Source: a virus
Reading direction: 5' to 3' (one strand)
Virus record (IMG/VR): IMGVR_UViG_3300047470_000238
Span: 1 to 41,398 of that record
Length of the DNA: 41,398 nucleotides
In this document: positions 5,655 through 40,500 of the stretch, in pieces
Numbering within the stretch: the first letter of the stretch is position 1
Layout of the letters: each line of letters opens with the position of its first letter
Program-made: the position numbers and the translations under genes
The notes under the pieces: generated by a model
Seen by the model: only the letters and a program-made list of their open reading frames with translations
Told to the model about the DNA's origin: nothing
The model's database searches: none

Positions 5655-6172
5655 TGAATATTAAAAACCCTCGTTACAACCAGCGCGGCACCATCGATTG
5701 TGAAGTAGAGCACGAGGCTCTTGGCTGGATTCCTTTTACCGCCTCGCCAGACGATGACACTGAGTTCGGTCGTGAGCTGTATGCAGCTCTCATCTCGGGT
5801 GCGCACGGCGTTGTTGGCCTGTACGCGGAAGCGCCATTGACGCCGGAACAGCAAGTGGCGCGCATCGCGGAACGGCGTTATGAGGTTGAAACGTCGGGCA
5901 TCACCGTTGACGGCATGGCCATCAATACCGACGACCGTGCCAAGACCTTGATCAATGGTTCCGCGATTAAGGCCATGCGCAACCCGGCTTACACCTTGCG
6001 CTGGAAAACCCCGGAAGGGTTCGTTGATCTGCCGTCTGCCCAGGTATTGGTGATGGCAGAGGCGGTCGCGGACTTTGTCCAGGGCTGCTTTGATCGTGAA
6101 GCTGACCTGCTGGCAGCGGTGGGCGATGGCACCTTCACTACCGCCATGCTGAAAGAGGGGTGGCCGGTATGA
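5654..6172 (+). CDS. DUF4376-like tail fibre assembly protein
   Basis: A 172-residue protein starting at the ATG in TAATG at the fibre stop. A longer frame extends upstream, but the coupled start is preferred. The C-terminal half (VDGMAINTDDRAKTLING... YTLRWKTPEGFVDL... AVADFVQGCFDREADLL) matches the DUF4376 pattern found in proteins encoded next to tail fibres, where it is thought to act in fibre folding or assembly. It overlaps the next gene by ATGA. Confidence 0.85.
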   Translation: MNIKNPRYNQRGTIDCEVEHEALGWIPFTASPDDDTEFGRELYAALISGAHGVVGLYAEAPLTPEQQVARIAERRYEVETSGITVDGMAINTDDRAKTLINGSAIKAMRNPAYTLRWKTPEGFVDLPSAQVLVMAEAVADFVQGCFDREADLLAAVGDGTFTTAMLKEGWPV

Positions 6173-6570
6173 GTCGTTTCACCACTACCCTGAAAACTGA
6201 GCAGATCGGCAAGTGGACGCACATTCTCCTTGATGAGTTGGTGCTGGCCGATGAGAGCCAGCGCGTCATCACGGTGCCGGCCGGCTTCGCCACGGACTTC
6301 GCCAGTATCAAGGTGCTGCACAATGCCTTCCTGTTCGCGCTATTCGCGCTGGTGTCCGGCTACGGCAACTACGCGGCCACGGTGCATGACTGGCTGTACG
6401 CAACCGGTGCCGTCAGCCGCAAGCAAGCTGACGCCATTTTCTACCGCGCCCTGCGCGCTGAAGGGGTGGCGCGCTGGCGGGCCTGGCTGTTTTGGGTCGG
6501 CGTTCGAATAGGTGGCGCTGGGCGATACAGCAAGGCGCCCAGGCCCGCCAACTCCCGGCAGCAGCCGTGA
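6169..6570 (+). CDS. DUF1353 family phage protein
   Basis: A 133-residue protein starting at an ATG that overlaps the previous stop. An in-frame ATG at 6160 is possible but lacks a better binding site. It carries the DUF1353 hallmarks: a VPAGFATDFASI motif, the VHDWLY segment and the later RKQADAIFYRAL segment. The conserved D and H residues suggest metal binding, but no activity is proven for the family. It is common near the ends of tail modules in Pseudomonas phages. An intrinsic terminator follows. Confidence 0.85.
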   Translation: MSRFTTTLKTEQIGKWTHILLDELVLADESQRVITVPAGFATDFASIKVLHNAFLFALFALVSGYGNYAATVHDWLYATGAVSRKQADAIFYRALRAEGVARWRAWLFWVGVRIGGAGRYSKAPRPANSRQQP

Positions 6571-6596
6571 TGGTCTGATCTGCACAGAACACAGTC

Positions 6597-6622
6597 ACCC
6601 GCCATCGAGCGGGTTTATTTTT
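6597..6622 (+). terminator. Intrinsic terminator after the DUF1353 gene
   Basis: The stem ACCCGC (6597-6602) and GCGGGT (6609-6614) closes a 6-base loop and is followed by a T-rich tail (TTTATTTTTG). Confidence 0.8.
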
Positions 6623-6650
6623 GTCCAAAATCTGCAACCGGAGATTCACC

Positions 6651-6881
6651 ATGTCCTTTATCGTCATCAACACCAGCAACAACTTCGACCCGATCAATCA
6701 AGAAATCTTCGCCACGGCCGAAGAGGCGGACGCCCAAGCGCGCGCCATTATTTCAGCGCAACCGCAGGCCGTGGTGCGCACGGCGCAGCTGATCAATGCC
6801 TACAGCGCCCAGGTGATCATCACGGCAGAGCCGGTGCCGGAGGTTCCAGCGGCGCCGGGTGAGCCGGATCTAGCGGAATAA
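6651..6881 (+). CDS. Hypothetical protein at the end of the late operon
   Basis: A 76-residue acidic protein with a good binding site (CCGGAGATTCACC). It has one alpha/beta region and a proline- and glutamate-rich tail (AEPVPEVPAAPGEPDLAE). No signal peptide or motif is seen. It lies between two intrinsic terminators, so it is expressed either by readthrough of the first or from its own promoter, which I could not identify. Confidence 0.75.
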   Translation: MSFIVINTSNNFDPINQEIFATAEEADAQARAIISAQPQAVVRTAQLINAYSAQVIITAEPVPEVPAAPGEPDLAE

Positions 6882-6898
6882 CCCGACGCCCCGACAGG

Positions 6899-6918
6899 CC
6901 CGCCGCGCGGGTTTTTTT
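6899..6918 (+). terminator. Strong intrinsic terminator closing the late region
   Basis: The palindrome CCCGC-CGC-GCGGG (6899-6911) is followed by seven T residues. It separates the late region from the plasmid-maintenance region. Confidence 0.88.
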
Positions 6919-7025
6919 ACGCCTGAAAAAAATCTCTGCAGGCTGTTTAAAAACCCGAGCCGGTCGTTATGGTGATTCAGGCGGTGAGTTTTTCGCCGTG
7001 GTGCGCTCAGACAGTTCAAGGCATA

Positions 7026-7041
7026 CTGTTCGTATGTACAG
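7026..7041 (+). promoter_or_regulatory. LexA-type SOS box
   Basis: The 16-mer CTGTTCGTATGTACAG fits the LexA consensus CTG-N10-CAG, including the outer CTGT/ACAG. It lies 50 bp before the start of the 7091 gene. No other site of this quality was noticed in the window. Confidence 0.7.
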
Positions 7042-7090
7042 TGTTCTGTCTGGCGCGTAAAATCGCAGCCGCCGACGCAGGGAGTACCCC

Positions 7091-7333
7091 ATGCCACAAA
7101 CACAGAAAGTTATCGAAGCGCTATCACCGGAAAGGCCAGCAATGACGCCCAGCCCTAACCCTCTGATCCAGGGAAATGCAGCAGACACACTTTCAGCGAC
7201 CCGCGATTATGTCGCCGACATTGCCAGTTCGTTCTCAATGGATGATCAGGTGGAGCGCGGCCGGTGGCTGCGGGTGATGGTGGTTCTGCACGCGCTGGAC
7301 GCGGTCATGACAGAAAATCTTTATCACAGATAG
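7091..7333 (+). CDS. Small protein of unknown function behind a LexA-type box
   Basis: An 80-residue protein with a binding site GGGAGTACCCC. The N-terminal 30 residues are proline-rich and probably disordered; the rest is predicted helical (LSATRDYVADIASSF... WLRVMVVLHALDAVM). It loosely resembles the small helical DUF3077/DUF6124-type proteins of Pseudomonas, which is a weak call. The SOS box upstream suggests induction by DNA damage. It sits between the late-region terminator and rep, so it could affect induction or copy number. No function can be read from the sequence. Confidence 0.65.
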   Translation: MPQTQKVIEALSPERPAMTPSPNPLIQGNAADTLSATRDYVADIASSFSMDDQVERGRWLRVMVVLHALDAVMTENLYHR

Positions 7334-7414
7334 TGGAAAACGAATTTTCGCGTGGTATGCTTTTGACCATTCGGCGCTGATAGCCGAGACAGACTTTAAG
7401 AAAAAACAAGGGAT

Positions 7415-7460
7415 TAGAAAAAAGAAAACCCCAGGCTGGCAGGCCTAGGGTTCTCGGTGA
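7415..7460 (-). ncRNA. Candidate antisense RNA / intrinsic terminator hairpin in the rep leader
   Basis: Arms 7427-7436 and 7443-7452 form a 10-bp stem with loop TGGCAG (sense strand). On the - strand the one imperfect pair becomes a G-U wobble, so the stem is complete only in the antisense RNA. The hairpin is followed on the - strand by TTCTTTTTTC, making it a textbook intrinsic terminator for leftward transcription. Short antisense RNAs ending this way control RepA synthesis in IncFII- and IncB/IncL/M-type plasmids. The loop is similar to, but not identical with, the UUGGCG loops of the latter. The 5' end and promoter are not identified. Confidence 0.45.
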
Positions 7461-7493
7461 TCGGTAAAAGACTAAGCTTCAAACGACCCTCGT

Positions 7494-8561
7494 ATGTCGA
7501 AGTTTAGCCACCCATCGCCTTCTAAGCAAGCCCGTTACGATAGGGATAGCTTGATGAGCGTCATGACCGCACCCGGTCAAGACGACGCACCCGCATTTAT
7601 GTGGGGCCGTCGCCATTACAAATATGCAGGCCAACACCTGGGCACCGGCAACCGCTGTGGGCACGATCCGCAGCACTTGGCCGCGGAGCGCTTGGCCTTG
7701 CCGGAGGTCAAGAACGGCTTTCGGGTCAAGGTCCTGCAGCGCCTGATCGACAGGGCGCAGGCGTACTTCAACGACCCCGCATCGGTGCCGCTGCTGGCCT
7801 ACCTGAGCGGCAAAAAGAACCGTGACGGATCGCCGCGGCAAAATCGCAGCGAAGGCCGAGAGGCGCAGTCCCTGATCCTGTCGGCAATCTATGCCTCAAT
7901 GGATTTGAAGTCGCTGCGCGTGGGCACCTACACCCCGCGCGGCGAGTTCAAAAACCTGTCTTTCCTTGATCTGGCCCTGCGCTGCGGCCTGACCCGTCAG
8001 ATCAAGAACGCAGACACCGGCGTTGTCGAGACTGTGCCGTCCAGCCGGTTCTGGCGTGGCGTGGCGTGGCTCAAGAAGGCCGGCGCGATGACGGTTTTCG
8101 AACAATATGAAGAAACCCCTGACGGCCCGCGTGGCCGCCCGGCGATCAAGCATATGAGCGCGAAATTTCTGCGCATCCTCGGCGGATTCACCAAGGCGCA
8201 ATTCAAGACCGCGACCAAGAAATCCAGCGATAAGGTCGCTGAGTATTTGGCGGGCTCCACGGCTGCCGGCACTCAGACCGTGCAGGAGCGTGAGCAGCTG
8301 GAGAATGAGATTCGCAGCGCGCGCGTCCATAAAGAGCTGTTCCCGAAACCCGCCATCAAAAACCGGATGCCACCCGAGGTGCCACGCGACAACAGCGCCG
8401 ACAGCCAAGTCGACGACTACACGGCGTACACCAAGGCGATCTATGCGCGTATTGAGTGTGACACCGGCACCAAGCCGCGCGGCAAGCAAGGCATGGAGCT
8501 ATTCGCCCGCTATGGTGGCCTGAGCCGCGATGCTTGGCTGCGAGAGCGGCACAACCTGTAG
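7494..8561 (+). CDS. RepA-like plasmid replication initiator
   Basis: A 355-residue protein rich in basic residues. The central part (SFLDLALRCGL... FWRGVAWLKKAGAMTVFEQYE) resembles the first winged-helix domain of RepA initiators of IncFII/IncL/M-type plasmids, and the total length is typical for them. The ATG at 7494 has no clear binding site. The in-frame ATG at 7554 is preceded by AGGGA at good spacing and may be the true start, leaving 7494-7553 as leader. A hairpin leader with a candidate antisense RNA lies upstream and a hairpin-rich, gene-free stretch lies downstream, where such plasmids keep their origin. The family call comes from pattern only. Confidence 0.6.
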   Translation: MSKFSHPSPSKQARYDRDSLMSVMTAPGQDDAPAFMWGRRHYKYAGQHLGTGNRCGHDPQHLAAERLALPEVKNGFRVKVLQRLIDRAQAYFNDPASVPLLAYLSGKKNRDGSPRQNRSEGREAQSLILSAIYASMDLKSLRVGTYTPRGEFKNLSFLDLALRCGLTRQIKNADTGVVETVPSSRFWRGVAWLKKAGAMTVFEQYEETPDGPRGRPAIKHMSAKFLRILGGFTKAQFKTATKKSSDKVAEYLAGSTAAGTQTVQEREQLENEIRSARVHKELFPKPAIKNRMPPEVPRDNSADSQVDDYTAYTKAIYARIECDTGTKPRGKQGMELFARYGGLSRDAWLRERHNL

Positions 8562-9284
8562 CCGCCACCCCTCCCCGCTGAACGCCACCCCCGAAACCTC
8601 GGGCGAGCCACCGTGCCCGCGCTGAGGTTTTGGCGTGTCCATCCCCTAGCAATGCCCTTCCCCCGCTCCGAAAATGGCTGAAAAGAGCCCTGGCGAGCCC
8701 TGATTTACCCATCCTTTTTCTATTCGATCCGCCTGCACCGCTCCGGCCGCGCGCCGGCGTAAAAATTAACTGGGACCCCTTAAAGTTAAGTAGGTGAGGA
8801 GTTGAATTAAGTCATGACTGTTCTTTTCCGCTTTGCTTCTTAGAATCTTGCGGCTTGCCTACGGCCAGCCTTGTTAATGCCTCGGCAAGCCGAGAACAGT
8901 TTGTTTACGCCTGAGCTTCGCCCAGGCAACGATGCCGCCCGCAGTTCGTGCCTACGGCACGGCGGGACGGACAGTCGATCGGTGTCGCAACTGACGCCGT
9001 TCCGTCAGTGAGGCGCCTTCCAGTCGCTGTGGCCCGCCCCCATGGACAGAACAACCTGACGACCGTGGGGCGGCCCTTCGCTCCTTCACGCGCCGCCTTC
9101 GGCTGGCCTGTCGCGCAAGCGCTCCGGCGAACGGTGTGGGCGGTTGGCTTCGGGTTATGGGGGCGGCCTACGGCCGGCCAATGCCGCTGGGGAGGTTTTG
9201 ACGCGAACAGCGAGCGGCGCTAAGGATTAAGGCGCACGCCCGCTGTGAGGCATTACAGCGGCTTTTGCTGGCTAAGCGGCAAAG
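8562..9284. other. Gene-free region downstream of rep: candidate replication origin with a hairpin array
   Basis: No credible gene lies in these 720 bp. The first 200 bp contain a C-rich stretch and then an A/T-rich patch (about 8760-8840) that could be an unwinding element. After it come short hairpins with 2-6-base loops: 8852-8870, 8881-8894, 8909-8927, 8947-8961, 8990-9009 and 9164-9176. Three of these have TAC loops. Origins of RepA-type plasmids lie directly downstream of repA, and structured single-strand initiation sites can follow; assigning that here is inference. I saw no good DnaA box. Confidence 0.45.
9241..9270 (+). other. Hairpin between the origin candidate and the lipoprotein gene
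   Basis: CGCTGT (9241-9246) pairs with ACAGCG (9255-9260), followed on the + strand by GCTTTTGC. It could be a weak rightward terminator. It has no T tract on the - strand, where the lipoprotein gene ends. Confidence 0.35.
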
Positions 9285-9686
9285 TTACAGATTGTTCCTG
9301 CAGTACGGCGCGGCCTGGGCAAAGCCCTGGTCTTTGTACAGCGTGGTGCTGGCCGAACCAAAGTACGGCGAGGTGCCGACCAGATTGTCACCCGCCGGTT
9401 GAATCGGTAGGCGCGTGCCGTCCTGAAAGTACAGCGTGCCGCCGCTGTATTTCAGATTCATCACAGCGTTATTGGTGTGGTATGCGCTGCACATCACGCC
9501 GGCACCGTTGCTGCCGATGCGCATCGACAACAGGTAAGGCCCCATGGTGCCTGTCCAGTCGCCGGCCACGCCGGCCGGAACCGGCTCGGCGGTTCGCTCC
9601 ATGTACTTGTTATCCATCATATCGCCGGTGGGCATGGCGCAGCCGCCCAGGGCGAGTAGCGCAGGGATGAGAAAAAGCGTTCGCAT
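9285..9686 (-). CDS. Small lipoprotein, possible superinfection-exclusion factor
   Basis: A 133-residue protein with a short signal peptide and a lipobox LGGC, the lipidated Cys being residue 16, so it is expected to be anchored in the outer or inner membrane. The mature part is beta-rich (GDWTGTMGPYLLSMRIG..., two later cysteines) and looks like a small beta-barrel or sandwich. It is the only - strand gene between the late region and the ParA cluster and is not part of the lysis cassette. Prophage-encoded lipoproteins of this size often block superinfection; that role here is inference from position. Confidence 0.75.
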   Translation of the reverse strand: MRTLFLIPALLALGGCAMPTGDMMDNKYMERTAEPVPAGVAGDWTGTMGPYLLSMRIGSNGAGVMCSAYHTNNAVMNLKYSGGTLYFQDGTRLPIQPAGDNLVGTSPYFGSASTTLYKDQGFAQAAPYCRNNL

Positions 9687-9796
9687 GTCGTTCCTATAGG
9701 TTCAGGTGCGGCCGCTTCCAGTGTCGACCGCCGGCAGCAGTAGAGCGAATCGGCAGCGGCGGGGCAACTTTCTGCAGTCGACCCGGCAGAATTCTT

Positions 9797-9845
9797 GCGT
9801 CAATGCGTTATAAAGTCATTGCGTCAAATGACGCAATGACGCAAT
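9797..9845. repeat. GCGTCAAT-family repeat site 1 (imperfect palindrome ATTGCGTCA-AA-TGACGCAAT)
   Basis: GCGTCAAT at 9797, the 20-bp inverted repeat at 9818-9837 and a further GACGCAAT at 9838-9845. It lies in the divergent gap between the lipoprotein and the 9901 gene. The same inverted repeat occurs at 14376-14393. Confidence 0.8.
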
Positions 9846-9900
9846 ATTGCTTCTATGGAATCGGCGGTAAGCGCCGTTCGATTATGGAGAATTTGCGGTA

Positions 9901-10497
9901 ATGATCGACCCCAATGACCCCGGCACGCTGGACCTGATCGCCGCCTGCGAAGAGCCACTGAGCGGCGCCGAGCGCGCGCGCCGGCATCGCCTGAAAAAGA
10001 AACAGGCCGGCGTCAAGGCCATCAGCCTGACCCACACCGAGCGCTGTGTCTTGAGCCTGGGCGTGTTGGCCCATGAGGATCTGTTTCACCGCCCGGCGGA
10101 CTGGGTCACCAGCCAAAAACCTGGGTTTGATGCGTTGCTGGCCAAGCTCTGGCCCGAGGGCGACGACGGCCGCTACCTGGCCGAACCGCAGCGCAGCACC
10201 CGCCGTCCTGCAGGATTCTTGCACGACGAGTTGAAACGGCAACGCGAGAGGGTCACCCGCCTTGAGATTGAAAACCGCCGCCTGCGCGAGGCCATGCAGC
10301 AAATCGTCCAGGAAGTTAGCGGCGGCTTGGCCAGCCCAGCCCCGGCCGAGGCCCCCGGGCGCGTGGCGGCCCTGGAGCGTGAGAATGCTTTATTAGAGTC
10401 TGAACGCAATGGCGCCCTGGCGGCGGTCAAGGTCTACGTGGCACGCTTAGGTAATGCCAAGCTGTCGACCGACTACCGCCGTCAGCCCGGCGAATAA
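9901..10497 (+). CDS. Coiled-coil protein, possible DNA-binding or plasmid-maintenance protein
   Basis: A 198-residue protein with binding site GGAGAATTTGCGGTA. The N-terminal segment holds a basic patch (RARRHRLKKKQAGVKAIS, about residues 25-42) followed by a compact helical region. Residues about 105-185 form heptad-rich coiled coil (LKRQRERVTRLEIENRRLREAM... VAALERENALLESERN). The layout, basic head plus long coiled coil, recalls KfrA-like plasmid proteins, but no family is recognised. It sits just downstream of a dispersed-repeat site, which could be its operator. Confidence 0.7.
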   Translation: MIDPNDPGTLDLIAACEEPLSGAERARRHRLKKKQAGVKAISLTHTERCVLSLGVLAHEDLFHRPADWVTSQKPGFDALLAKLWPEGDDGRYLAEPQRSTRRPAGFLHDELKRQRERVTRLEIENRRLREAMQQIVQEVSGGLASPAPAEAPGRVAALERENALLESERNGALAAVKVYVARLGNAKLSTDYRRQPGE

Positions 10498-10536
10498 ACG
10501 AGCGTGACGCGTAACGCACTGAAAGGAACCCCCGCC

Positions 10537-15311: not shown

Positions 15312-15962
15312 TTATCGGCTGGTGGCTATAAGCACCACACGACCGATGATCTGATACTTCTGCAGTTCGTCTGCGGTACAGCGCAGGTCGGGGTATTGGT
15401 CGGCGTCGGTGGAAGCGATGGTGAAGGTTTCGTCAATTTCCGGCCTGATCCAACGAACCCACACCCGACCACTGACCAATAAAGCGAACAGGTCACGCTG
15501 TGACGCGTCACGTTTGCCCAAGTCCAGCAGCACCCGGTCGCCCTTGTTCACCACGCCTTGCATGCTGTCATCCGGCATACGGACCAGCATCAGGTTATCC
15601 GGCAATATAGCGAGTTCGTTCAGGAATGAAGCGCGGAAGGCGAGGGCGTCGTCGGCGATAGAGCTGTCCAGCAGGAGCCCGGCCACGTTGGGGCTTTTCT
15701 GCGGGTAGAAATAATCGCCGGCATGCTCGGCGTCATCGAGCCCGGCCAGATAGCTGGCCGGAACGCCGTACAGCCTGGACAGCGGCATAAACGCTTCCAT
15801 CTTTGGCCGCCGCTCGCCCAGCTCCCACATGTTCATGCCGGTGGTGCCAATAGGGTTAGGGGTGTAATGGCCGAGGCGTTTGATGGCTTCGTCTAACGTC
15901 CATCCGCGTGCATCGCGGCACTTACGTAAGCGCTGTCCGATGATCTTGCTGAGGTCGGTCAT
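15312..15962 (-). CDS. CI-type phage repressor (HTH plus S24/LexA-like domain)
   Basis: A 216-residue protein. The N-terminal domain (about 5-75) is an XRE-type helix-turn-helix (IIGQRLRKCRDARGWTLDEAIKRL... MNMWELGERRPKMEAF). The C-terminal half is an S24 peptidase-like dimerisation domain with the nucleophile motif DDSMQG (Ser133). A possible cleavage pair Ala94-Gly95 lies 38 residues before it. The general-base Lys expected 37 residues after the Ser is Arg170 here (VWVRW), so RecA-stimulated autocleavage may be lost. It lies divergent from the Cro-like gene across a region with operator-like repeats. Confidence 0.9.
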   Translation of the reverse strand: MTDLSKIIGQRLRKCRDARGWTLDEAIKRLGHYTPNPIGTTGMNMWELGERRPKMEAFMPLSRLYGVPASYLAGLDDAEHAGDYFYPQKSPNVAGLLLDSSIADDALAFRASFLNELAILPDNLMLVRMPDDSMQGVVNKGDRVLLDLGKRDASQRDLFALLVSGRVWVRWIRPEIDETFTIASTDADQYPDLRCTADELQKYQIIGRVVLIATSR

Positions 15963-31799: not shown

Positions 31800-34700
31800 A
31801 TGTCCGGCCAGACTTTACGGTCGCTGGTGGTCAGCGTTTCGGCTGAAACAAGCGCCTATCAGCGAGAAATGGCCCGCGCCAGCCGCATGGGTCGCGACTA
31901 TCTGCGCACCATCGGCGACGGCAACCGGAGCGCCGCCGCTGGCTGGCGGGCTCAGCAAGCGGCCATTGAGGCGCAAACCCGCTCCCTATCCGGCCTGACG
32001 GCCGGGGTGTCCGAGTATGCGCGGACCATGCTTGGCGCGTTGGCCCTCGGCAGCGCAATCACCGAGGCCGACAACTGGGGGCAGGTGGCCAGCCGCTTAA
32101 AAATGGCCACCGGTTCATCCGAGGAATACAAGGCAGTGTCTGAAAAGCTGATGGAAATCAGCGACCGGACCTACAAGAAGTATTCCGATCAGGCCGAGCT
32201 GTTCATCACCTCGGCCAAGAAGATGAAAGAGCTGGGCTATTCCACCGAAGTCACCACGGCGTTTGTCGACGTGTTGGCCTCGGGCCTGACGGTCAGCGCA
32301 GCGAGTGCCGAGGACACCGCCGAGGTGATCAAGGCGGCCTCCGAAGCGATCGCCTTGGGCAAGCTGCAGGGCGATCAATGGCAAGCCATGCTGACCAAGG
32401 CCCCGGCGGTGATCGAAGCCATGGCCGACTCGCTGGAGGTGAATACCTCGGCACTGGGCGTGATGGCCAGCAAAGGCGAGCTGGTGACCAGCAAGTGGTT
32501 GCCGGCATTGATCGCCAAGCAACAGGAATTGGCGGACAAAACCGAGAAAATGCCGACGACGGTGGGGGACGCGCTCACCCGCTTGTCCAGCCACTACGGC
32601 AAGTGGTTGGGCGAACAGAACGAAGCCGCGGGCGTCACGCAGAATCTGGCCAGTCTCATCAATTTACTGTCGTCCAACATGGACACCCTGGCCATTTCAG
32701 TCGTGGCCCTTGGGGCAGGTGGGCTGACCAAATTCGCCGCCGAAGGCGCCAAGGCGCTGCTGACCGAAGTCAATGCCATGCGCGCGTCCATCGCGGCGAA
32801 CATTGGCAGGGCGGCCGCCCAGGCCGACGTGATGGCCCTGACGGTGCGTGCAACTCAGGCCGAAGTTATCAGCGCCCAAACGCAAGTCACCACCACCGTG
32901 GGCACCAACGCCCATGCCGCCGCACTTGCGCGCCTGCGGCTGGCCCGTATAGCGGACTTTGAGGCCACCCAGGCGCAAACGGCGGCTCAGGCAGCGCTTG
33001 CGCGCGCCTCAGGCCTGGGCGCGCGTGCCATGGGCGGCTTGATGGGCTTGCTCGGTGGGCCGGCCGGTCTGGCCGTTTTGGCGGCGGGTACGGCGGCCAG
33101 TTTCCTGCTGTTCTCCGACAACGCCGAAGCGGCCAATACGGCGGCCACCGACCTGAAAAAGCCGATCAAGGAGCTGCGCGAGGAATGGGAAGCGCTGGGC
33201 GCGGCGCAGCAACGGCCGGTTTTGGCAAAATTGGTGGAGCAGCAGGCCGCCGCCCAAGCCAAGGCCGCTGAAATCGTCAAGGAAATGCAGGCCGTGGCGC
33301 AAGGGCCGTCCGGTGACTATTTGGGCGGTCAAAACTTCAAGGCCAACCAGTATCAGCGGGCGAGGGCGGCGGGCAATTTCCGCCGTAACATTGCCGCCGG
33401 CGTCGATATCGACCAAAGCACTCAGGAGCTGGTGGCGGCCATCGGTCCCACTGCGAAGTTGCGCGGCGAGATTGAGCGCTGGGCGGCCAGTTATGCCGAG
33501 GCGATCCACAACAGCCACGCCGCCGGCGAGCAGATAAACGTCCTGCAGGGAATCTTGGATCGGGGTGCCGGCGCTGCCAATAACCTGGCGACAGGCCTGG
33601 GCAACATCAAGAGCCTGTCGCCGGACATGGCCAGCACCTGGGAAAAGAAGATTGGCGCGCTGACCGAACAGGCGGCCAAACTCAAGGACGCCACCACCCT
33701 CGGCGAGGTCAATCGCGGAATTGCCAATGATAGCCTTGAGGACACCCCCGAAGGGCGCAAGCTGGCCGAGCGCGCCCGTGCGGCAGCGGCGGCGGCGGAT
33801 GCCGAAGAGTCGGCGAAAAAGGCCCGCGAAGAGGGCGAGCGTAAGAGCAAGCAGGCTGCCGAAGAGTCGTTGCGCAAGGCCAAGCAGCTGGATGACAGCT
33901 ACAAGCGCACGCTGGCCACCCTGACGCAACAGTCGGCGATTTACGGCAAAACCACTGAGCTGGCCAAGGTCAAATATGAGACCACGCAAGGCGAACTCAA
34001 GTCGCTGACCGATGCGCAGAAAAAGGAGTTGGAGCGCGCCGCTACGGCCAAGGATTTGCTCGAGGCGCAGAAGGCCTACAAAGACCTGATGGAAGGGGCG
34101 CAGACGGCCGAAGAAAAGCTGCTGACGCAAATGCGTGAGCGGGTCAAGTTGCTCAACGAGGCGCGCGCCGCCGGCGCGGTCACGCCTGAGCAGTACGACG
34201 CAGCAACCGACCAGTTCAGCAAGGCGGCGATCACCAAGGCGCCGAAGTTCGGCGGCCTGGACGCGTCGGTGGGTGGCGCAGCGGGCGAGCTGATCAAGGT
34301 CGCCGAGGCGCAGAAGGAACAAGAAAAATGGCAGGCCGACGAGCTGGAGCGGCAAAAAACCTTTCTCGATGAAAAGCTGATCAACGAGCAGCAGCACGCG
34401 GATCGGGTCGCGGAAATCACCAAGACCAACAACGATCGGCTGTCGAGTTTGGGTACGGCCTATCAGGTCGCCACGCTGGGCATGTTTGCTGACGTGACGA
34501 GTAACGCCGGCGATATGCTGACGCAGCTCGGACAGGAAGGCTCCACGGCTTACAAGGCGTTGTTTCTGGCCAGCAAGGCGGCCGCCATCGCGCAGGCCAT
34601 CGTCTCGACCGAGGTGGCCGCCGCGAAAGCGTTGGAGCTGGGACCGATTATGGGTATCCCGGCGGCATCGCTGATACGCGGTATGGGCTACGCGTCGGTG

Positions 34701-36167: not shown

Positions 36168-36896
36168 ATGCGTAAACACATTCTCAAGGCTATCCGTGAA
36201 CACGCGGCGGCGGACTATCCGCGCGAGGCGTGCGGGCTGCTGCTGCAGGTCGGCCGCCGGCACGTCTACCAGCGTTGCAATAACTTGGCCGACAACCCGA
36301 ATGATGAGTTCATTTTGGACCCGGCCGATTACGCGGCGGCCGAAGACGCCGGCGTCATTATCGGCATCGTCCACAGCCACCCCGACGCCACCAGTCGAGC
36401 CAGCCCGCACGACCTGGCGCTGTGTGAGGCCAGCGCGCTGCCCTGGCACATCCTGAGCTGGCCGGAAGGCGATCTAAACACCATCGTGCCCACCGGCGAA
36501 GTGCCGCCGCTGGTGGGGCGGCCCTTTGTGCATGGGGTGTGGGATTGCTACGGCATTATCCGCGACTGGTACGCCCTGGAACGCGGCATCGAGCTACCCA
36601 ATTTCACCCGCGAGGATGGTTGGTGGGATCGTGGCGATGATCTGTATATGCGGCTGTATGCCGAGGCGGGGTTTGAACAGGTCAGCGGTGCGCTGCAGGT
36701 GGGGGACGTTATCGTCATGCAGGTGCTGGCCGAGCAGTCCAACCATGGCGCGGTGTACCTGGGCGACGGCAAGTTTCTCCATCACCTCTATGGGCGCCTC
36801 AGTGAACGCGCCGTTTACGGCGGCTACTGGCAGGAACGCACCACCCTGACGCTGCGCTACAAGGGGAGGGCCGGCGATGGTCATGCAAGCGATTAA
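36168..36896 (+). CDS. Tail tip protein K: JAMM plus NlpC/P60 peptidase
   Basis: A 242-residue protein starting at ATG 36168 after GCGGAG. The N-terminal JAMM/MPN domain has Glu20, His69-x-His71, Ser79 and Asp82 (HSHPDATSRASPHD). The C-terminal NlpC/P60 domain has Cys127 (WDCYGIIRDWY) and His193 (SNHGAVYLG). Both active sites look intact. It probably trims the peptidoglycan peptide bridge during entry or acts in tail assembly, as for lambda K. Confidence 0.93.
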   Translation: MRKHILKAIREHAAADYPREACGLLLQVGRRHVYQRCNNLADNPNDEFILDPADYAAAEDAGVIIGIVHSHPDATSRASPHDLALCEASALPWHILSWPEGDLNTIVPTGEVPPLVGRPFVHGVWDCYGIIRDWYALERGIELPNFTREDGWWDRGDDLYMRLYAEAGFEQVSGALQVGDVIVMQVLAEQSNHGAVYLGDGKFLHHLYGRLSERAVYGGYWQERTTLTLRYKGRAGDGHASD

Positions 36897-37476
36897 CGCG
36901 CCTCAGGTGGTGCGCACCGTTCGCCTGTATGGCGTGCTGGGTGCCCGCTTCGGGCGTGAGTACCGGTTGGCGGTGGCCTCGCCGCGCGAAGCGATGCGCG
37001 CGCTGGCCTGTCAGGTGCCCGGGTTGCGCCAGTTTCTCGAAACCAGCCGCGAAAGGGGCTTGGTGTACGCCGTGTTTGTTGGGCGGCGCAACGTGCCTGA
37101 GCGCGAGTTGGACCATGGCGCCGGCGAGCTGGATATTCGCATTGCCCCGATCATCAGCGGCAGCAAGAAGGCCGGTCTGTTTCAGACCATCTTGGGCGCG
37201 GTGATGGTCGTGGTCGGGGTCATGTCCACCGCGTATGGCGGCGCCGGGATGATCGCGGCCGGGGTCGGCATGATGACCGGCGGGGTGGTGCAGATGCTGT
37301 CGCCGCAAGCGTCCGGCCTGAAAAGCCGGCAGGCGGCGGAAAACACCCCGTCGTATGCCTTCGGTGGCGCCGTCAATACCGTGGCCCAAGGTAACCCCGT
37401 GGGCCTGGGCTACGGCGAACGGGAGATTGGCGGCGCGGTGATTTCCGGCGGTATTTACGCCGAAGACCAAATGTAA
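36877..37476 (+). CDS. Tail assembly protein I
   Basis: A 199-residue protein overlapping K by 20 bp, with binding site GGGGAGGGCCGGCG. The N-terminal half is a beta-grasp type domain (VRTVRLYGVLGARFGREYRLAVASPREAMRALACQVPG). The C-terminal half has a glycine-rich hydrophobic stretch (ILGAVMVVVGVMSTAYGGAGMIAAGVGMMTGG) and then the conserved YAFGGAVNTVAQGNPVGLGYG. This is the lambda I layout. It assists J in tip assembly and is not retained in lambda virions. Confidence 0.92.
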   Translation: MVMQAINAPQVVRTVRLYGVLGARFGREYRLAVASPREAMRALACQVPGLRQFLETSRERGLVYAVFVGRRNVPERELDHGAGELDIRIAPIISGSKKAGLFQTILGAVMVVVGVMSTAYGGAGMIAAGVGMMTGGVVQMLSPQASGLKSRQAAENTPSYAFGGAVNTVAQGNPVGLGYGEREIGGAVISGGIYAEDQM

Positions 37477-37495
37477 ACAACCCGATTTTTGAAAG

Positions 37496-37517
37496 CCGGC
37501 CCTGAGCCGGTTTTTTT
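37496..37517 (+). terminator. Terminator-like hairpin between I and J
   Basis: CCGGC-CCTGA-GCCGG (37496-37510) followed by seven T residues: a full intrinsic terminator inside the tail operon, 20 bp before the J start. Confidence 0.8.
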
Positions 37518-37536
37518 ATGTCCGAAGGATTTGACC

Positions 37537-40500
37537 ATGGCAGCAATTCAAGGCCGTAAAGGTGGATCGAGCGAAGCCAAGACGCCGGTAGAGGCGCCGG
37601 ATTCCATCCGTTCTGTGGCGCGGGCCAAGATGTTGCTGGCCTTGGGCGAGGGGGAATTTGCCGGCGGCCTGGATGGCACGCGTATTTTTGCCGACGGTAC
37701 CCCGCTGACTGCCGCCGATGGCACGGAAAACTTCCCGGGCTTTAAATGGGAGTTTCGCCCAGGCACGCAGCATCAGGAGCATATTCCCGGGCTGCCATCG
37801 GTCGAAAATGAAATCGGCGTGGGGGTCGAGCTGCGCAGTACGGCGCCGTGGGTGCGCGCTGTCAGCAACGCCCAACTGTCCGCTGTGCGTTTGCGCTTGT
37901 CCTGGCCAGTGCTGCAACAGCAAGTGGACGGCGGCGACGTGACGGGCTACCGCATCGATTATGTGGTGGAAATCTCAACGGCGGGCAATGGCTGGGTGCA
38001 GGCGCTGGCCGCCACCATCAACGATAAAACCACGACCAAATACGAGCGTTCGCACCGGATTGAACTGCCGGCCAGCACCGGCGGGTGGAGCGTGCGCGTT
38101 CGGCGCCTGACCGCGAATCAGGACAGCAATAAGATCGCCGATACCATGCGTATCGAGGCGATCACCGAAGTCATCGACGCCAAGCTGCGCTATCCGAACA
38201 CCGCCTTGCTGTATGTCGAGTATGACGCCAGCCAGTTTCAGAACCAGCCGAAGATTTCCTGCAAGCCGCGCATGCGGGTTATCCGTGTGCCGACGAACTA
38301 CAACCCGGAAACGCGCAGCTACAGCGGTATTTGGGATGGCACGTTTAAATGGGCGTGGACCAATAACCCGGCGTGGGTGCTGTACGACATTATTCTGAGC
38401 AAGCGTTTCGGCATGGGCCGGCGCCTTGATGCGTCCATGGTGGACCGCTGGGAGCTGTACCAGATTGCCCAGTATTGCGACGAGCTGGTCAGTGATGGCC
38501 ATGGCGGCATGGAGCCCCGGTTTACCTGTAACGTTTACATTCAAGACGCGGCCGACGCTTGGGACGTGTTGCGCGACATCGCCGCGATTTTTCGCGGCAT
38601 CACCTACTGGAGCGGCCGGGAAATGGTCGCCCAGGCGGACATGCCCTCGGATGTGGAATACGTGTTTTCGCGCTCCAATACCAAGGTGGTCGACGGCAAA
38701 ATCAGCTACAGCAGCCAGTCGGAGCGCTCGCGTTATTCGTCCGTGTTGGTGGCTTACGACAACCCGAAAAACCGTTACGAAAGCGAGCCGGAGCCGGTGT
38801 CTATTCCGTCGCTGGTGCGCCGTTATGGGTTCAACCAGACGCAGATCACGGCCATCGGCTGTGTCAGTCAAAGCGAAGCGAACCGGCGCGGGCGCTGGCT
38901 GCTGCTGACCAACGCGGTCGACCGATCCATCACCTTCACCACGGGGCTGGATGGGTATCTGCCGAAGCCTGGGCGCATCATTGGCATGGCGGACGCGTTT
39001 CTGGCCGGCCGTGAGCTGGCCGGGCGCATCAGCTTGGTATCCGGCCGGCAAATCACCCTGGATCGGGATGTCGTGGTTAAGGCGGGCGACCGCTTGCTGG
39101 TCAACCTGCCGAGCGGTCGCGCCGAAGCACGCACCGTGCAGAGCGTGAGCAATCGCGTCGTTACGGTAACGACGGCGTATTCAGAAACGCCGTTGGCACA
39201 GGCGCAGTGGGGCATCGAATCCACCGATCTGGTGATTCAGCAATACCGCGTCACGTCCGTTACGCGTAACGATAAGGGTTTTGAAATCTCGGGGATCATG
39301 ACCGACCCGGGCAAATATTCGCAGGTCGACAGCGGCACCCGTCTCGAAACGCGGCCGATCAGCGTGATTCCTGCGCGCGCCCAGGACGCGCCGGCAGCGG
39401 TCAAGGTGTCGAGCTTCACTCGCGTGGTGCAAGGGATCGCGGTCACCACCTTGCGCGCAGACTGGGAGGCGGCGAAAGGCGCGATTGCCTACACCGTCGA
39501 ATGGCGCAAAGACTCGGGCGAATGGGTCGCCGTGCCCCGCATGTCGGGGCTCGGCTTCGAAGTGCCGGGGATCTACGCCGGCCGCTACCTTGTGCGCGTT
39601 CGGGCGCTCAACGTGATGGACGTGGCCAGCGTGTTTGCGTACAGCGCGGAGACGGTATTGAACGGCAAGGAAGGCTTGCCGCCGGCGGTCACTGAGTTGA
39701 TCGTCACGCCGTTGCTGTTTGGTATCGGCCTCAATTGGGGCTTTCCTGCCGGCGCCGAGGACACGCAGCGCACGGAAATTTGGTACGGCCCGACCAGTGC
39801 CCTAGAAAGTGCGATCAAGCTGGCAGATCTGGCCTATCCGCAAAGTGATTACTCGATGCAGAGCCTGCAGGCTGGCGCGAGGTTCTTTTTCTGGGCACGC
39901 CTGATCGACCGGACCGGCAACGTCGGCCCTTGGTATCCAACGGGTATGGGGGTGATGGGGCAAGCCAGTGACGACCCCGGGCCAATCCTTGGTCAGATCG
40001 CCGGCCAAGTTGGCGAGACCGAGCTGGGTAAGGGGCTGTTAGACCGGATCGAGCTGATTGACGGACCGTCAACCCTGCCGGGATCGGTCAACAATCGCGT
40101 GAATGAGCTGAGCGAGCAAATCGGCCAAGTCACGGATCACCTGCAGGAGCTGGTGAATGAAGGACAAGCCGCGCTGACCGACGCTCAGCAGGCGTTCAGC
40201 GAAGCTCAAGCCGAGCTGCAGCAGCAAATCGATCAAGTCAGCACCCTCGCCAAATCTGGCGAATACCAGAAGGATAAAGCCTACGCCATCGGCGCCTCGA
40301 CGCGCCTGAATGATCGCCTGTACCAAGCCAAAATCGCGGTGCCGGCGGATGCCAGCGGCGCGAAGTCGCCGCCGAATGCGACCTATTGGGTGGACGTTGG
40401 CCAAGTAGTGTCCGAGTCGAACGGCTTGGCCGCACGGGTCAACACCACTGAAACCAAAATCACCAGTATCGAGGGGGTCAATACCAGCCAGGGCACGGCG

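Follow-up and report, generated by a model that had tools for sequence, protein, structure and literature searches.

The window and its putative SOS locus

The stretch of DNA analysed, referred to here as the window, is the 41,398 bp IMG/VR virus record IMGVR_UViG_3300047470_000238. It encodes portal, major head and tape-measure proteins of a tailed phage together with an integrase, ParA, an S24-type repressor and RepA, a relative of plasmid-type Rep proteins. As tailed-phage genes occur alongside a plasmid-type repA relative, the window was taken to be a phage-plasmid. The features discussed below are as follows.

7026..7041, plus strand: predicted LexA (SOS) box CTGTTCGTATGTACAG, exact CTGT-N8-ACAG
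7035..7063, plus strand: sigma-70 promoter TGTACA-17-TAAAAT, with its -35 inside the LexA box
7079..7084, plus strand: ribosome-binding site AGGGAG, 6 nt before the ATG
7091..7333, plus strand: gene for a putatively SOS-controlled small protein of a new family, proposed antirepressor (ATG start, 80 aa)
7353..7361, plus strand: conserved extended -10 TGGTATGCT, probable repA promoter, as suggested by invariant alignment columns
7424..7455, minus strand: covarying repA-leader hairpin, terminator-like on this strand, probable end of an antisense RNA
7457..7507, plus strand: possible 16-codon leader peptide, matched in length and stop in 2 of 13 other leaders
7554..8561, plus strand: repA, its reading frame open from 7494 and its start probably at 7554 (M21)
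15312..15962, minus strand: S24-type phage repressor, proposed target, with Ser133 kept and Arg170 at the catalytic lysine position

The box lies 49 bp upstream of the 80-codon gene and its right half constitutes the -35 element of the promoter. Exact CTGT-N8-ACAG sites occur twice in the window, at 7026 and 9243. Sites with at most one mismatch number 8, compared to 11.2 in shuffled sequences, and the consensus count alone is therefore no proof. Using a scoring matrix built from the boxes of nine relatives, with the window left out, the site at 7026 scored 19.9 and the next-best site 7.2, and none of 60 simulated genomes had a better top site. It again ranked first with a second matrix, built from 12 sites that we take to be E. 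coli LexA sites (16.3 versus 14.4 for the runner-up), and was beaten in one of 60 simulated genomes. On these scores 7026-7041 far outranks every other LexA-like site of the window, in agreement with a preliminary description that had placed an SOS box ahead of the small gene. The ribosome-binding site, called good in that description, was graded as fair.

The second exact site (9243-9258) has a GC-rich middle, lies downstream of the minus-strand gene 9285-9686 and is probably a chance occurrence. On the plus strand 5' of the box the terminator scan reported no terminator; a GC stem followed by a T run is visible at approximately 6895-6915.

Conservation of the gene together with its box

At the DNA level, the region 6000-10500 has only distant relatives. 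Megablast returned no match among 50,697 phage records and, among 72,556 plasmid records, one 311-bp match in a single record. A search of IMG/VR found no close relatives of the small protein and a search of IMG/VR and GTDB contigs found none of RepA; for the repressor, close relatives were found at two loci in IMG/VR. When the small protein was used as a tblastn query, Delftia pHQS1 and Pseudomonas phage PARCL1pr were matched at 50% identity each and Aeromonas and Edwardsiella sequences weakly. The Edwardsiella protein as query in turn retrieved Vibrio pVPGX2, P. lundensis pPL-38ph and two P. aeruginosa plasmids. Ten further contigs were obtained from scans of IMG/VR and GTDB, including L031, the sequence of which is that of pVPGX2, so that the 21 loci comprise 20 distinct ones. 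A Halomonas member was picked up by its position before repA. The hosts of the homologues are thus Pseudomonas, Delftia, Aeromonas, Edwardsiella, Vibrio and Halomonas, in addition to metagenomic phages.

A CTG-N10-CAG box was found 35-73 bp upstream of the start in all 21 loci (20 distinct, the gene start of L031 being truncated in this count). It takes the strict form CTGT-N8-ACAG in 17 loci and ends in CCAG in the other 4, the P. lundensis box being of the relaxed form, and ten distinct box sequences are represented. A -10 element matching at least 4 of 6 positions follows the box-internal -35 by 17-18 bp in 16/21 loci; no clear -10 at that spacing was found in the Vibrio element (two loci), Halomonas or two P. 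aeruginosa loci. Seven complete genomes (283,709 bp) contain ten strict sites. Among their 1288 ORFs of at least 60 aa, 8 are preceded by a strict box at a distance of no more than 100 bp, and six of these are the small gene; the remaining two are an ORF on the opposite side of the same P. aeruginosa box and another P. aeruginosa ORF. Three non-phage plasmids with a related repA, taken as controls from 165 plasmid records with a Rep match, have no strict box before repA (0/3), and their upstream ORFs were judged by eye to be unlike the small gene. In one of them (L025) a CTG-N10-CAG sequence, CTGG...TCAG, is followed after about 190 bp by an unrelated ORF. This conservation of the box across relatives strongly supports the LexA control that had been proposed for the small gene, and suggests that LexA would bind the box and that the gene would be induced by DNA damage.

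The small protein

N, L, D-T and G positions are kept in an alignment of 14 members, and pN/pS values of 0.07-0.37 across nine pairs indicate that the protein is under purifying selection; the small gene is therefore not just a leader. Two AlphaFold models (mean pLDDT 75 and 79) both predict a two-helix hairpin, and fold searches with the two models gave nothing at E < 0.001. None of the 14 members matched Pfam or PHROG profiles, and the five members scanned against NCBIfam had no match of note. Neither a homology nor a fold match to any antirepressor emerged from these family and fold searches, which counts against an antirepressor role. A suspected resemblance to Pfam DUF3077 was rejected as the Pfam search gave no such match. 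At the level of titles and abstract openings, no description of the gene was found in literature on SOS or copy control of phage-plasmids or on the relatives. The gene appears to have been unnamed previously and the family to be new to Pfam, PHROG and NCBIfam.

Distance correlations were calculated over nine dereplicated genomes. Distances between small proteins correlated with those of the repressor (r 0.68) and the integrase (r 0.70) and showed no tracking of Rep (r 0.19). The correlation with the repressor, strong at first (partial r of 0.84 given Rep), was dropped as an argument for contact between the two proteins once the integrase served as control. With the integrase tracked just as closely, co-evolution gives the repressor no special place, and this equal tracking speaks against repressor specificity.

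repA, its leader and control of replication

By tblastn, a Rep match follows immediately after the small gene and in the same orientation in 19/21 loci; two of the three Reps used as queries themselves belong to these loci. The next ORF of the Vibrio element (two loci) bears only a distant resemblance to Rep. Ten repA leaders align with a covarying fold in which 23 cells changed on both sides, versus 7.6 in shuffles and 1-12 in slid controls. In the window, Delftia and P. aeruginosa the first leader hairpin forms a terminator on the minus strand, which makes an antisense RNA opposite the repA leader likely; the scan found no minus-strand terminator in the Edwardsiella leader. The repA leaders of IncFII/IncI-type plasmids are antisense-controlled, and those described here resemble them in having a hairpin opposite a minus-strand terminator and, in some members, the loop UUGGCG. 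However, the Rep proteins here were not matched to those families and Rfam gave no match at cut-off, the best being rnk_pseudo at 25 bits against a cut-off of 55, which was not accepted. A conserved leader peptide was also considered and rejected, 16 codons ending in GTTTAG being found in only 3/14 leaders.

No plus-strand terminator was found between the small gene and repA in three of the four loci scanned (window, Delftia and Edwardsiella), and SOS transcripts may therefore enter repA. Together with the gene order and the structured leader, this is consistent with an SOS promoter that acts mainly on replication, with read-through overriding or titrating the antisense RNA and giving a burst of RepA, possibly with help from the small protein. 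Purifying selection on the protein itself is at odds with that alternative, as is the terminator-like hairpin on the plus strand of the P. aeruginosa leader. A further argument comes from two loci, L017 and L018, which are 94% identical over the late end, box, gene and leader, then have differing Rep reading frames, after which similarity resumes. By sequence, the Rep coding region has here been exchanged cleanly in nature, with nearly identical DNA on either side and the small gene unchanged. The replacement and the low correlation with Rep weigh more against a protein that binds Rep than against read-through. Overall, a mainly replicative role is considered unlikely, though it is the strongest of the alternatives.

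The phage repressor

One S24-type repressor family is common to the whole phage-plasmid group. In all 16 S24 repressors compared, some of which are near-identical, arginine occupies the position of the catalytic lysine, and the nucleophile position is serine in 13, alanine in two and threonine in one. Both serine and lysine are retained in three ordinary S24 proteins encoded by the A. rivuli genome. On account of the arginine in 16/16 and the loss of serine in 3/16, self-cleavage of these repressors is probably poor or absent. A change of lysine to arginine may leave slow cleavage, as LexA work has indicated, and the window repressor retains Ser133 and has Ala94-Gly95 at a plausible cleavage spacing, points that count against an antirepressor.

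The Vibrio repressor, not one of the 16, also reads arginine at the lysine position. An initial reading of the Vibrio element as having a short non-S24 repressor was rejected, as its S24 gene is broken by a frame change. In pVPGX2 (L015), frame changes or stops disrupt the repressor (31951-32594) as well as the integrase (36817-38029).

The small gene was expected, although not as a strictly defining feature, wherever the altered repressor occurs. The exception is pHN2, in which an altered Ala/Arg repressor is accompanied by neither gene nor box, and this counts against an antirepressor. Its 82-kb record (L035) contains one phage-plasmid of about 41 kb twice, in tandem. In a further case (L034/G379) the sequence ends at the gene site.

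A LexA-controlled antirepressor as the favoured reading

The explanation favoured here, with a probability of roughly 0.55, is that the small protein is a LexA-controlled antirepressor of the phage-plasmid's own S24-type repressor. LexA would repress the promoter of the small gene until removed upon DNA damage, whereupon the small helical protein would be made, bind the repressor and inactivate it, thereby linking induction to the SOS response. If self-cleavage is impaired, SOS induction would depend on a different route, and a LexA-controlled antirepressor would supply one; the small protein probably wakes the dormant phage, given that the repressor seems unable to cut itself. The interpretation given in the preliminary description is partly supported. 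Of its two suggested roles, antirepressor or enhancer of replication from the adjacent rep, the former fits better, since the repressors look poorly cleavable or non-cleavable and the gene persists where Rep has been exchanged. Against it, the gene adjoins repA and the repressor gene is about 8 kb away.

The two roles might also be combined, one LexA promoter working two switches, with the protein releasing the repressor and the transcript lifting copy control by running into the antisense-controlled repA leader. This is a tentative proposal and probably not the correct one. If true, DNA damage would in a single step turn a plasmid of low copy number into a phage that replicates.

Somewhat more doubtful is a target in the host, such as cell division, host replication, RecA or another SOS function, in place of the repressor or Rep. 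Small SOS-induced proteins directed at the host do exist, SulA being one, and the small protein varies in step with the phage backbone as a whole, with no evident partner. Yet a single family found in at least six host genera is tied to one phage-plasmid type, and 369 gammaproteobacterial genomes gave one real match, in a known A. rivuli element, with one further weak match inside a 744-codon frame. It is very improbable that the phage's own repressor binds the box, or that the box arose by chance, even though CTGT-N8-ACAG with one mismatch is common, as LexA half-sites are preserved in the ten distinct boxes and the repressors share no more than 35-65% identity with that of the window, around whose start a different word, TGTGGAA/TTCCACA, is repeated.

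Comparison with known systems

The proposed antirepressor follows the logic of the Gifsy antirepressors GfoA, GfhA and GftA and, as judged from family profiles, is probably unrelated to them in sequence. Those are described as LexA-controlled, encoded outside the immunity region and acting on repressors that RecA does not cleave (PMC3121763), and the small size, the LexA box at the promoter and a gene outside the immunity region are shared features. The Gifsy repressors are described there as short and like the CI N-terminal domain (PMC3121763), whereas those studied here are full-length S24-type proteins with altered catalytic residues. The small protein has no match in Pfam, PHROGs or NCBIfam, and its gene precedes a plasmid repA. 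Tum of coliphage 186 is likewise a LexA-controlled antirepressor encoded near the late region; by description, the small gene resembles it in predicted control and in location, whereas coliphage 186 integrates and the window is a phage-plasmid.

In the TF-smORF modules of linear plasmid-like phages, small proteins are described as inactivating the repressor, and one is encoded near repA (PMC10432266). Small phage-plasmid proteins directed against a repressor, as proposed here, and a position near repA are points of likeness. Those modules are described as SOS-independent and driven by transcription factors, with autoproteolytic repressors (PMC10432266), whereas here a LexA box precedes the gene in 21/21 loci. 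No constant neighbouring regulator gene of the TF-smORF type was found across the small-gene loci; an HTH gene divergent from and adjacent to the small gene is present in Vibrio only.

Phage-plasmids move resistance genes between bacteria, and cargo among the relatives includes mercury genes and a record named for blaVCC-1. Little is known of how phage-plasmids leave the plasmid state. An SOS switch conserved in one phage-plasmid type across at least six genera would explain damage-triggered release, and the small-protein family is newly offered as a testable candidate.

Additional sites

The window sequence CACAGATAGTGGAAA (7320-7345), upstream of the repA promoter, shows conservation within the Delftia group and similarity to the TGTGGAA words found next to the repressor gene; it is a possible repressor operator on repA. 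A strict box, CTGTATATGCAAACAG, is located at 2161-2176 of pPAC1.3b (L023), with a hypothetical 246-bp gene 53 bp downstream. In pPL-38ph (L016), the strict LexA-like sequence CTGTTTATTCATACAG (37244-37278) lies 18 bp before a DNA adenine methylase gene that adjoins the small gene and is perhaps a second SOS gene.
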